24,406 nt of DNA from a virus. The stretch is taken from the IMG/VR virus record IMGVR_UViG_3300031857_001327, positions 1 to 24,406 of that record; one strand, given 5' to 3'. The translations under genes and the position numbers were made by a program. The notes under the pieces are model-generated. The model made no database searches. It was given only the letters and a program-made list of their open reading frames with translations, and was not told where the DNA came from. Positions 2,449 to 6,267 of this stretch are shown here, in pieces. How positions within the stretch are numbered: position 1 is the stretch's first letter; the number at the start of each line of letters is the position of its first letter.

Positions 2449-2853
2449 ATGAACGTAAAAACTTTACATAGAAAACCTAAAAAAACATACAAGAAAGGTG
2501 TTTTGAACGTGAATAGCGAAGCATATCAGCAACAATTGGTGATACAATTTATACGTGCTAACTATCCAAACGCACTTTATTGCGCATCAGCAGGTGGTAT
2601 GCGTACAAGTTATTTACAAGCAGTCAAAATGAAACGAACTGGTTATGTAAAAGGATTTCCCGACTTATTTATATATGAACCACGTGGTGAATTTTTTGGA
2701 TTAGCAATTGAAATGAAAAAAGAAAAAGGTGGTACGGCATCACCCGAACAAAAGTGGTGGCGTGACGAATTGCGAATCAGAAACTACGAAAGTTATATTT
2801 GTAAGGGGAGTGACGAAGCAATTCAAATAATAAAGAACTACCTTGACTCTTGA
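2449..2853 (+). CDS. VRR-NUC domain nuclease
   Basis: This 134-residue protein is a stand-alone VRR-NUC nuclease, a PD-(D/E)XK-fold enzyme often found in phages with DNA repair or recombination genes and usually thought to cut branched DNA. Visible motifs are the AGGMRTS loop (about 48-54), the catalytic GFPDLFI with Asp72, and the IEMKKEKG strand with Glu88 and Lys90, followed by SPEQKWW and a C-terminal segment ending ICKGSDEAIQIIKNYL. These match the family core in order and spacing. I chose the ATG at 2449; an in-frame TTG at 2443 would add two residues. Its last bases overlap the TTG start of the sigma-like gene. The first 20 residues are very lysine-rich and may bind DNA. Confidence 0.85.
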   Translation: MNVKTLHRKPKKTYKKGVLNVNSEAYQQQLVIQFIRANYPNALYCASAGGMRTSYLQAVKMKRTGYVKGFPDLFIYEPRGEFFGLAIEMKKEKGGTASPEQKWWRDELRIRNYESYICKGSDEAIQIIKNYLDS

Positions 2854-3337
2854 TGCATACATAAGCAAGAATTATGACCATCTCAAAAAGTTGGCACGTA
2901 ACATTGCGCGGAATGCTGAATGGTATGAAGACCTTTTGCATGAATCAATCATTAGTGCTATCACAAGTAAACATATTGATAATCTTTTGCAGAATGACGA
3001 ATTTGAATTCTATTTGATACGTGTTATGTACTTATCAGTTAATTCACCATCATCACCGTTCTACAAATTACACATCGAATACAAAAGAAACAAACGTGAT
3101 TTTGTAGATAAGAATTATGAAGAAGATAAAACGTGGTTAGGTGCGCGAATGACAAACGAACAATTAGACATTCTAATTAGCAGATTAAGTGAATTTGAAA
3201 GATTAGTGTTTGAAGAATATATTTTAGAAGATTTCACGTACAAAGAATTCAGTAAACAAACTGGTATACCACAAGTGTATCTTTATAGAACAATAGATAA
3301 AGTAAAACAAAAACTCCGAAACAATGTTATTCGTTAG
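2843..3337 (+). CDS. Sigma-70 family (ECF-like) RNA polymerase sigma factor
   Basis: This 164-residue protein looks like a minimal two-domain sigma factor. Residues about 12-40 (HLKKLARNIARNAEWYEDLLHE) resemble sigma region 2, including the ED-L-E signature. Residues about 118-158 (FERLVFEEYILEDFTYKEFSK and the following IPQVYLYRTIDKVKQKLR) are a sigma region-4 helix-turn-helix. It probably redirects host RNA polymerase to phage promoters, perhaps for the right-hand operons. The start is TTG at 2843, overlapping the VRR-NUC stop; the nearby ATG at 2852 is in another frame and soon meets a stop. Its 3' end overlaps the next gene by 14 bases. Region 2 is degenerate, so it could instead be a sigma-like phage activator. 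Confidence 0.7.
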   Translation: MTLDAYISKNYDHLKKLARNIARNAEWYEDLLHESIISAITSKHIDNLLQNDEFEFYLIRVMYLSVNSPSSPFYKLHIEYKRNKRDFVDKNYEEDKTWLGARMTNEQLDILISRLSEFERLVFEEYILEDFTYKEFSKQTGIPQVYLYRTIDKVKQKLRNNVIR

Positions 3338-3746: not shown

Positions 3747-3848
3747 CAGTTGGTAACTTTATTTTTATATCAAGAATAATCAAACGAAATTTGCACCAAT
3801 GCAATTTGTCATATCATATTTAGTTAGTTTAGGATTTCCAAAATCAAA

Positions 3849-3898: not shown

Positions 3899-4041
3899 TA
3901 CTCTTATTTGATGCGTAGCATTAATCAATTAACCTGCGTAGGACATAGCGCAGTATCAAATGTCAACACTTGCAATACACCAATGCTTGGATCGTGTAAA
4001 TGCTCTTATTGAGCGTGAACGTTTGTTTTTCTTGGGGGGTC

Positions 4042-4099
4042 TTTTTCTTTTCTTTCTTTTTCTTTTTTAAACTTTTTTCTTTTTCTTTCTTTTCTTTTT
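4042..4099. repeat. Perfect 27-base polypyrimidine mirror repeat (potential H-DNA)
   Basis: The left arm, 4042-4068, is T5 C T4 C T3 C T5 C T6. The right arm, 4073-4099, is T6 C T5 C T3 C T4 C T5, the exact reversal on the same strand. The arms are separated by AAAC (4069-4072). Homopurine-homopyrimidine mirror repeats are the known sequence class that can fold into an intramolecular triplex (H-DNA) under supercoiling. A G6 run (4034-4039) lies just to its left. The structure sits 62 bases before the ParB-like gene. The symmetry is seen directly; any role in replication, packaging or transcription is inference. Confidence 0.9.
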
Positions 4100-4160: not shown

Positions 4161-4742
4161 ATGAAAACAACTATCGTTAAGATTTCAGAAGTGAAATCAA
4201 ATCCAAACAACCCACGTTTAATTAAAGATGACAAATTCAACAAACTGGTTAATTCAATAAAACAGTTTCCGAAAATGTTGGAGTTAAGACCAATTGTTGT
4301 TAACGATGATATGATTGTTCTCGGTGGTAATATGCGTTTAAAAGCGTGTAAAGAAGCAGGATTAAAAGAAATACCAATTATCAAAGCATCAGAATTGACT
4401 GAAGATGAACAACGTCAATTTATAATTAAAGATAATGTTGGTTATGGTGAATGGGATTGGGAAATGGTAGCCAACGAATGGGATTCTGATATGCTTGTTG
4501 AATGGGGTTTAGATGTTTGGAAAGCACCAGCAGATGTTGATTATTCTATTTTAGATGAAGGTGATGATTTAGATGATTTAATTTCTGATATGGCTGATGG
4601 CGTAAAGAAAGCAATCCAAATTGAATTTGAAGCAGAGCATTACGAAGAAGCATATGAACTTGTAAAGTTTTGGCGCGAACGAAATGCTTATGTTGGTGGA
4701 ATGATAATGGAATATCTTAAATCAGAAAAAGAAAAGTTATGA
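4161..4742 (+). CDS. ParB/Srx-like N-terminal domain protein of the DNA-modification cassette
   Basis: Residues 1-90 form a ParB/sulfiredoxin-like domain with the family motifs NPNNPR (14-19), LRPIVV (42-47) and GGNMRLKA (55-62), where the GGxxR box binds nucleotide in this fold. The rest is acidic (DEGDDLDDLISD) with a C-terminal helical segment containing HYEEAYELVKFWRERN. Unlike chromosomal ParB proteins it lacks an obvious helix-turn-helix, so partitioning is unlikely. Such ParB-like domains recur in phage operons with TET/JBP enzymes and TET-associated glycosyltransferases. Its TGA overlaps the glycosyltransferase start as ATGA, so the three genes are coupled. It may bind or license DNA for modification, but its exact job is not known. 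Confidence 0.75.
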   Translation: MKTTIVKISEVKSNPNNPRLIKDDKFNKLVNSIKQFPKMLELRPIVVNDDMIVLGGNMRLKACKEAGLKEIPIIKASELTEDEQRQFIIKDNVGYGEWDWEMVANEWDSDMLVEWGLDVWKAPADVDYSILDEGDDLDDLISDMADGVKKAIQIEFEAEHYEEAYELVKFWRERNAYVGGMIMEYLKSEKEKL

Positions 4743-5470
4743 TTTGTTTTATACCAAGTAAGTCAAGACCAACAACAAAAACGTATAAACTTTTTGAAAA
4801 AGTTGGAATTGAAGTTCGCCATTTTATTGAACCGCAGGAAATAGACAGATACCCAGTTCCAAATAAAGTTTCTATTTTAGAAAACAATAAAGGAATTGGA
4901 TATGTCAGAAACTTTATGCTTGATTACGCAAGAAAGAACAATCACGAATGGGTTATTGTCTGCGACGACGATGTAACTTCCTTCGGAATATACAACGGCA
5001 AGACAGTAAAGAAAGACGCTTCTATTTGGTTTGATATTTTAGATAAGGCAAAGAAACTTCCTTTTGAAATTGTTGGTATCAATTACACGCAGCACGCTTG
5101 GCATGAAAAAACAAATTACTCAATAAATAAAAAGTTTGCAGAAGTTTGTGTTTTGATGAATGTCAAGAAAATCTCTTGGAATTACCGTTCAGAGTTTAAC
5201 CTAAAAGAAGATAGGGACTTTGCCTTGCAAACAATAAAGAATGGTAATGGTATACTGCGCTTCAATAGATATTGGTTTGCTTGTCCAGATGTTGGAAGCA
5301 ATGCAGGTGGGTTGCAGGATATGTATAAGGCAAAGAAAGATGAGGAATCTGCAAAGAAGATGTGTAAAGAGTGGAATCCTTTTGTAACCTTGCAAAGAAA
5401 AGGTGAGCGCGTGGATATGAAGACTGACATAAAAGGGTTGGCTACTCACTACAAAAAAATAGTAAAATGA
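4739..5470 (+). CDS. TET-associated glycosyltransferase (TAGT-like, GT-A fold)
   Basis: This 243-residue protein has the features of the TET/JBP-associated glycosyltransferases of phages. They are an N-terminal IPSKSRPTT strand-loop, GIGYVRNFMLDYA (52-64), a metal-binding WVIVCDDDV (71-79) matching the DxD motif of GT-A enzymes, and KEDRDFALQTI (156-166), the typical acceptor-side acidic motif. It would transfer a sugar to a hydroxymethylated base in phage DNA, the base being oxidised by the TET/JBP enzyme encoded immediately downstream (ATGA overlap). The sugar and the base cannot be read from sequence. Arginine codons are mostly AGA, unlike the structural genes, hinting at separate ancestry. 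Confidence 0.78.
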   Translation: MICFIPSKSRPTTKTYKLFEKVGIEVRHFIEPQEIDRYPVPNKVSILENNKGIGYVRNFMLDYARKNNHEWVIVCDDDVTSFGIYNGKTVKKDASIWFDILDKAKKLPFEIVGINYTQHAWHEKTNYSINKKFAEVCVLMNVKKISWNYRSEFNLKEDRDFALQTIKNGNGILRFNRYWFACPDVGSNAGGLQDMYKAKKDEESAKKMCKEWNPFVTLQRKGERVDMKTDIKGLATHYKKIVK

Positions 5471-6267
5471 AAAGAATTGATTTAACACCTATTCCTCACA
5501 GCAGAAAGATTGGTGAGGCTTGTGAATACATTGAACCTAATATAACAGAAGATTGTATCTTTTATTCAGATGGTATTCCAATTGGTTTCTATCTTACCAA
5601 GATGCCAGATAAAATGTGTAAACTTGCGGATTTGGCTAATGCGGAATTTAGAAGTAAAAATGTTCCAAAGTCATATTTAGATAGAATGGAAACAGTTAAA
5701 TTATCTAAAGAAGGAATGAAAAGAAGTGAGGCAAGAAAAATAGGCGTTAGTCAAATGAGTGCGATTATTGGAAGTGTTCCTCCAAAACCAGTAATGAGAA
5801 GACCATACGCAACTATTTCAAGTATACATTCAGAAAAAAAAGCACAAACATTTATAAAAGCAATGTTGTTACTTGCAATTGAAAGCGAACAATTAATAAA
5901 AGAAATATTACCACAACAGTATGAACAGCAGGTCAAATTGTTTGAAGCGGTAAAACAAAAATGGAGATTTGCAAATTTTTTTACTTCTTCAATTTCAAAC
6001 TACAATATCAGCGCACCATTCCATCGTGATACTGGAAATATAGTTGGAGCAGTAAACGTAATTATCTGCAAGAAACATAATTCAAAAGGGGGTGATTTGC
6101 ATATACCAGATTACAATGCTACAATCGGACAACAAGATAATTCAATACTTGTTTACCCAGCGTGGAAAAATGTTCACGGTGTTACACCAATTATCCCAAC
6201 ACACGAAGGGGGGTATAGAAATTCATTGGTGTTCTATCCTTTGAAAGCATTTGTTGGATTAGATTAA
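5467..6267 (+). CDS. TET/JBP-family 2-oxoglutarate/Fe(II)-dependent DNA base dioxygenase
   Basis: This 266-residue protein is a phage TET/JBP-type dioxygenase. The double-stranded beta-helix core is in the C-terminal third. FHRDTGN gives the iron ligands His186 and Asp188, GGDLHIPDYN (208-217) is a family signature, VHGV supplies the third ligand His237, and GGYRNSLVFYPLK supplies Arg251 for 2-oxoglutarate. The N-terminal half (about 75-170) is basic and helical, as in other phage members, and probably contacts DNA. Known relatives oxidise 5-methylcytosine or thymine in DNA to the hydroxymethyl form, which a partner glycosyltransferase can then decorate. All four expected active-site residues are present, so it should be active. 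Ten of eleven arginine codons are AGA. Confidence 0.82.
   Translation: MKRIDLTPIPHSRKIGEACEYIEPNITEDCIFYSDGIPIGFYLTKMPDKMCKLADLANAEFRSKNVPKSYLDRMETVKLSKEGMKRSEARKIGVSQMSAIIGSVPPKPVMRRPYATISSIHSEKKAQTFIKAMLLLAIESEQLIKEILPQQYEQQVKLFEAVKQKWRFANFFTSSISNYNISAPFHRDTGNIVGAVNVIICKKHNSKGGDLHIPDYNATIGQQDNSILVYPAWKNVHGVTPIIPTHEGGYRNSLVFYPLKAFVGLD

Follow-up and report, generated by a model that had tools for sequence, protein, structure and literature searches.

A conserved phage RNA element ending in a polypyrimidine mirror repeat, a candidate triple-helix clamp

The perfect polypyrimidine mirror repeat in the window (the whole analysed stretch of 24,406 nucleotides, from IMG/VR virus record IMGVR_UViG_3300031857_001327) is the 3' part of a conserved element, of which more than 140 distinct copies were found, nearly all from uncultured phages. 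In these relatives mirror symmetry is kept while the sequence changes. The element is probably a stand-alone RNA gene, judging from its promoters and arrangement, and its arms are likely to form a triple helix. That the RNA ends in a triplex clamp with DNA as first-choice partner is a proposal to which we give an even chance. The complete reading is more tentative: a widespread phage non-coding RNA whose mirrored pyrimidine clamp would form a sequence-defined triple helix on its own template DNA, plausibly priming replication.

Selected roles for triplexes in bacteria and phages are an old open question, usually argued from sequence abundance. In this element evolution has in effect performed a repeated double-mutant experiment, in which arms change together and loops vary freely. 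A natural triplex would become directly testable, with many ready variants, in an undescribed phage RNA. If true, it would be, as far as we found, the first natural triplex in phages or bacteria backed by covariation of arm with arm, and a new way of tethering an RNA to its own gene, plausibly for replication priming.

Mirror symmetry in the window and in its relatives

The arms TTTTTCTTTTCTTTCTTTTTCTTTTTT (4042-4068) and TTTTTTCTTTTTCTTTCTTTTCTTTTT (4073-4099) match at 27 of 27 mirror positions around the spacer AAAC (4069-4072), and a G6 run lies 5' of them at 4034-4039; both features had been described in the original prediction and are confirmed. Within the window no second mirror repeat was found with arms of at least 12 bases and spacers of at most 20. 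Between the end of the tract and the ATG at 4161 there are 61 bases.

Chance had been judged an unlikely source of the symmetry. Dinucleotide shuffling of the tract, repeated 3,000 times, never gave 27 matches (best 24), and a perfect mirror appeared in 13 of 200,000 base shuffles of both arms. Shuffling the order of runs in both arms gave a perfect mirror 3,300 times in 200,000 (1.7%), and because of this figure the single copy needs comparative support; on its own, the window copy is suggestive and its chance argument is not overwhelming. The judgement stands firmly once relatives are added.

The ParB-like protein encoded downstream of the window element served as first bait and gave 80 loci, four of which (L001, L002, L003 and L029) carry the tract upstream of the ParB-like gene in an identical layout. 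Further copies were fetched from IMG/VR with DNA patterns. The common layout consists of the header TTGGnnCRnnYA, a U-rich stretch, a G run and the two arms. The longest G run before the arms has 2-7 G in 141 of 142 distinct copies, and the G run is part of the element.

Because the arm finder scores symmetry and many copies had been fetched by arm patterns, two checks independent of the arms were made. All 51 distinct copies retrieved by a header pattern that is silent about the arms are mirrored, with arms of at least 18 bases (50 of 51 lie above an alternative mirror-score cut-off), although not all of them are independent lineages. All ten loci found only through the neighbouring sigma-like protein are mirrored as well; these are close kin of the window. 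In one of them (L431) both arms are altered together, reading T4CT4CT3CT4CT8-ATTA-T8CT4CT3CT4CT4. T/C tracts that carry the same 20-base right-arm seed without the RNA header are for the most part unmirrored: a score of at least 17 was reached in 8 of 56 cases, and at least two of these eight are elements truncated at a contig end. Retention of symmetry in relatives had been set beforehand as a test, and it was passed. Relatives devoid of symmetry and shuffles that often give 27/27 were both sought, and neither was found.

Mirrored copies span about 20 run patterns and many loops, including AAAC, ACCT, ACTC, GTCC, AGC, GGTTAC, GCCTAC, ATTA and others. Over 33 distinct arm pairs, loops ignored, the mirrored positions comprise 633 T/T, 96 C/C, 23 other double interruptions and 6 one-sided interruptions, which places 119 interruptions in both arms and 6 in one arm. 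When the 5' arm of one element was set against the 3' arm of another, the means were 28.7 double and 177.2 one-sided interruptions. Of the 119 double interruptions, 23 are combinations other than C/C, namely C/G, G/C, A/G, A/A, G/G and A/C; left-A/right-G was seen in four cases and the reverse never. These relatives, which change bases and retain symmetry, support the predicted triplex-type mirror repeat and suggest that it is under selection.

Accident, or a mutational artefact that leaves a symmetric T/C-rich tract, has a negligible probability in our estimate. The 1.7% of run-order shuffles speaks for it in a single window, but it is refuted by the mirrored relatives that were found without use of the arms and have many different sequences. 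No mutational process known to us would duplicate a sequence in reverse without complementing it.

The RNA element and its genomic surroundings

The element in the window has the following features, all on the plus strand.

3786-3793, plus strand: -7-like promoter GAAATTTG, a degenerate version of the motif with one mismatch to TAnnTTTG
3934-3953, plus strand: P1 hairpin, CTGCG (3934-3938) with CGCAG (3949-3953); 100% of cells paired, 3 of 5 pairs changed on both sides
3942-3964, plus strand: pseudoknot, GACA in the P1 loop (3942-3945) with TGTC (3961-3964); the middle pair occurs as U-A, A-U and G-C
3972-3986, plus strand: P2, GCA (3972-3974) with TGC (3984-3986); compensatory changes, 15 stem versions in distant copies
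3987-3998, plus strand: conserved header TTGGATCGTGTA, family pattern TTGGnnCRnnYA
4002-4014, plus strand: P3, GCTC (4002-4005) with GAGC (4011-4014); 98.6% of cells paired, 4 of 5 pairs changed on both sides
4022-4033, plus strand: U-rich stretch TTTGTTTTTCTT, nearly invariant across window-type copies
4034-4039, plus strand: G run preceding the arms
4042-4068, plus strand: 5' pyrimidine arm, mirrored at 27 of 27 positions and covarying in mirror with the 3' arm
4069-4072, plus strand: loop AAAC between the arms, 3-6 nt in most relatives and variable in sequence
4073-4099, plus strand: 3' pyrimidine arm, mirrored, probably the 3' portion of the RNA, with no ordinary terminator within 120 nt beyond it

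The original prediction had described a bare intergenic DNA motif. What we find instead is a conserved structured RNA element, in most cases with a promoter of its own, and the repeat forms its 3' end. Across 30 window-type sequences, P1, the pseudoknot, P2 and P3 together have 92.9% of cells paired, and 11 of 19 pairs changed on both sides. Their covariation score is 0.306, against 0.121 for shuffled (0 of 500) and at most 0.050 for slid sequences. A four-base P2 stem is present in 86 of 127 distinct upstream windows, in 15 versions. A second subfamily has the same architecture in a different register. Minimum-free-energy folding of the window region was no better than shuffles (z -1.17 and 0.17) and therefore uninformative; the informative signal came from covariation alone. 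The promoters, and six G-U cells at one pair, support the assignment of the RNA to this strand.

The -7 promoter consensus of Bacteroidetes is TAnnTTTG (PMC6847099). Of 160 copies, 139 have this motif in the 260 nt upstream, mostly at 50-70 or 150-190 nt; by chance 0.20 would be expected per stretch. In the window the RNA probably starts about 5 nt downstream of GAAATTTG, and predicted RNA lengths range from 112 to 343 nt with a median of 137. An intrinsic terminator (a G+C-rich hairpin followed by a U run) was found in the 120 nt after the arms in 2 of 141 copies and in 1 of 137 random pieces. The element is antisense to both flanking genes in 36 of 150 loci, and each of nine near-complete records holds one element. 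It is probably a stand-alone RNA gene because it usually has its own Bacteroidetes-type promoter, is often antisense, and occurs once per near-complete record. A riboswitch or attenuator leader of the downstream operon was rejected because of the antisense loci and the single copy in those nine records.

Two other identities were considered. Rfam gave no gathering-level match in the window, L003, L029, L094, L203 or L232, and none in a marine copy; the other strand of the window region had a sole weak chance match (E 3, below the gathering score). A known RNA family was rejected on these results for the tested copies. A short peptide (open reading frames, clusters 14 and 26, cross the element) was also rejected, because loop and run lengths shift by single bases, and one subfamily has an in-frame stop, read by eye.

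Contigs that bear the element carry tailed-phage genes. In window-type phages it follows a VRR-NUC gene, a sigma-like gene and a Cys-rich gene; other phages have lysis genes upstream, with NinG, SSB, Erf or helicase genes nearby. Among the 23 loci whose flanks are complete, 22 have the sigma-like gene (2843-3337 in the window) near the element. No tRNA genes were found in the window, and GC skew gave no sign of an origin at the element. Positions 4161-6267 of the window encode a ParB-N protein, then a TET-associated glycosyltransferase (TAGT), then a TET/JBP dioxygenase, probably a DNA hypermodification cassette. The suggestion that the ParB-like protein reads the repeat is unlikely to be right, because most ParB relatives lack the element and most elements precede other genes. 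The position upstream of the ParB/DNA-modification cassette looks incidental.

The source phages probably infect Bacteroidetes, as indicated by the promoter type and by single-cell genomes. Two marine Bacteroidetes single-cell genomes, AG-891-I06 and AG-892-D16, contain two chromosomal copies each (L400, L403, L405 and L406); the two copies in AG-892-D16 form an inverted pair separated by 5.3 kb. Wide occurrence in host chromosomes was rejected: among 396 scanned genomes of the order, only the centre genome has the element, apart from one match that looks spurious. The structured region had no blastn match among cultured phages. The element is absent from the cultured relative Nonlabens phage P12024S, which has VRR-NUC and sigma genes in the same order as window-type phages.

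A putative triplex clamp and its alternatives

In a pyrimidine-motif triplex, the two pyrimidine strands are antiparallel and recognise one shared purine strand. From established nucleic-acid structure, mirror symmetry with double changes would be a requirement of base-triple geometry; inverted-repeat pairing, protein dimers and the mutational processes known to us would not predict it. To our knowledge nothing else explains a mirror kept by double changes, and triplex formation by the arms appears likely. A hairpin of U.U pairs between the arms was rejected, since it would accept U and C equally well opposite a C and leaves the matched interruptions unexplained.

In the proposed mechanism, a host-type promoter would start the RNA and the structured 5' domain would fold, followed by the U-rich stretch, the G run and the two pyrimidine arms with their short loop. 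The arms would clamp a purine strand through U.A-U and C+.G-C triples, and they would have to mirror each other because one would bind by Watson-Crick pairing and the other in parallel orientation in the major groove. The irregular spacing of mirrored C positions points to a purine strand with G at set places. This strand would most likely be the element's own template DNA, which has G opposite every mirrored C. The template is favoured because it matches automatically and because no purine tract elsewhere in nine phage genomes matched clearly above shuffles; DNA, rather than RNA, is nevertheless a partner whose probability we put at roughly one half. Clamped in this way, the RNA would stay attached to its own gene in a triplex or R-loop for which the G run is the seed.

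In ColE1 and in human mitochondria, primer R-loops are anchored by G-rich stretches (PMC6317783). Like ColE1 RNA II and the mitochondrial LSP/CSBII transcript, the phage RNA would be a promoter-driven transcript with a G-rich stretch near the would-be anchor site, and such a stretch of 2-7 G precedes the arms in nearly all copies. One such anchored transcript in each genome might act as a primer for replication, a guess that rests on the resemblance of a promoter-driven, G-anchored, one-per-genome transcript to these primers. A replication role, our first guess at function, is possible but doubtful. Those systems, in contrast, have no described mirror clamp, and priming in the phages is a guess.

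Some points count against the clamp on template DNA. Neutral pH weakens C+.G-C triples, and a hybrid of pyrimidine RNA with a purine template strand is weaker than one in the opposite orientation. Several of the 23 mirrored non-C/C interruptions are hard to reconcile with a strict DNA triplex. Over a T-A pair, G is the usual third base. The left-A/right-G cases agree with this and hint at the 5' arm as the Watson-Crick strand, although there are few of them and they are related.

A clamp made of RNA only is an unlikely but serious alternative in our view. ENE/MALAT1 elements also have two U-rich strands at or near an RNA 3' end that could hold an A-rich strand, and in ENEs two U-rich tracts together bind poly(A) by forming U.A-U triples (PMC12501189). 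The phage arms can likewise be aligned on one A-rich strand (633 T/T over the 33 distinct arm pairs), which might be the RNA's own added tail or a host target; with a tail, the clamp would shield the RNA against exonucleases. The arms lie at the probable RNA 3' end without an ordinary terminator, and tolerance of non-C/C double interruptions is expected for a plain A partner. A plain A strand, however, leaves the irregular, mostly C/C interruptions unexplained. The phage arms are also longer than those of ENE/MALAT1, their interruptions are matched, and inspection by eye showed neither an encoded A-rich strand downstream nor a stem closing the open end, whereas the plant ENE studied needs flanking G-C pairs (PMC12501189).

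Rather improbable, too, yet likewise a serious contender, is a supercoiled intramolecular DNA triplex at the end of the RNA gene that acts as a pause, terminator or replication barrier while the RNA arms are idle. A mirror repeat this long, whose loop in most copies measures 3-6 nt, is a textbook H-DNA sequence (PMC4666352), and no terminators were found downstream. Homopurine-homopyrimidine mirror symmetry with a short spacer is present in the window (27/27, 4-nt spacer) and in relatives, and the phage repeat shares with H-DNA repeats a polypyrimidine mirror, a short loop and, on paper, a pyrimidine-motif triplex. Unlike them, it is joined to a structured RNA, many phages have conserved it, and its arms covary. 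The arms always share a strand with the structured RNA and follow it closely, which H-DNA alone would not require. A protein binding to U runs, with the mirror as a by-product of protein arrangement, is less probable still. Proteins commonly target U-rich RNA, and the sigma-like gene is a near-constant neighbour; this gene is also present, however, in P12024S, which is without the element. No RNA-binding protein known to us needs a pair of single-stranded sites of which one is the reverse of the other, interruptions included.

Relation to known elements, and further T/C tracts

GOLLD and ROOL are likewise conserved structured phage RNAs of unknown function. The present element differs in being much smaller and in giving no Rfam match in the tested copies, and the window has no tRNA genes. 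TMECO and ITxF, intrastrand triplex motifs of bacterial chromosomes, are also intergenic, repeated and potentially triplex-forming, but they are G/C-rich double fold-backs in one DNA strand and are not found in phages, whereas the phage element would be a U/C clamp tied to an RNA. In open-access papers on triplex mirror repeats, RNA triple helices and phage structured RNAs, the element is not described. Base triples and G-run anchors are already known; what is new is a conserved RNA defined by mirror covariation.

Several further tracts were noted. In L233 (minus strand, about 3114-3303) all four in-mirror C residues of the 3' arm are G, and the 5' arm retains three of four, which makes this copy a natural variant for asking which triads matter. 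L174 (about 4690-4780) has a G5C loop between T/C mirror arms and lacks the usual header. L081, L085 and L411 (Pontibacter qinzhouensis) have GGCGCAAAA or GGCGCAAC flanked by T/C mirror arms, and their purine strand could be Lys/Glu-rich coding sequence. L173 (about 5460-5570) has a G/C-rich hairpin between T/C-rich arms and is nearer to ENE/MALAT1 than the window element is.
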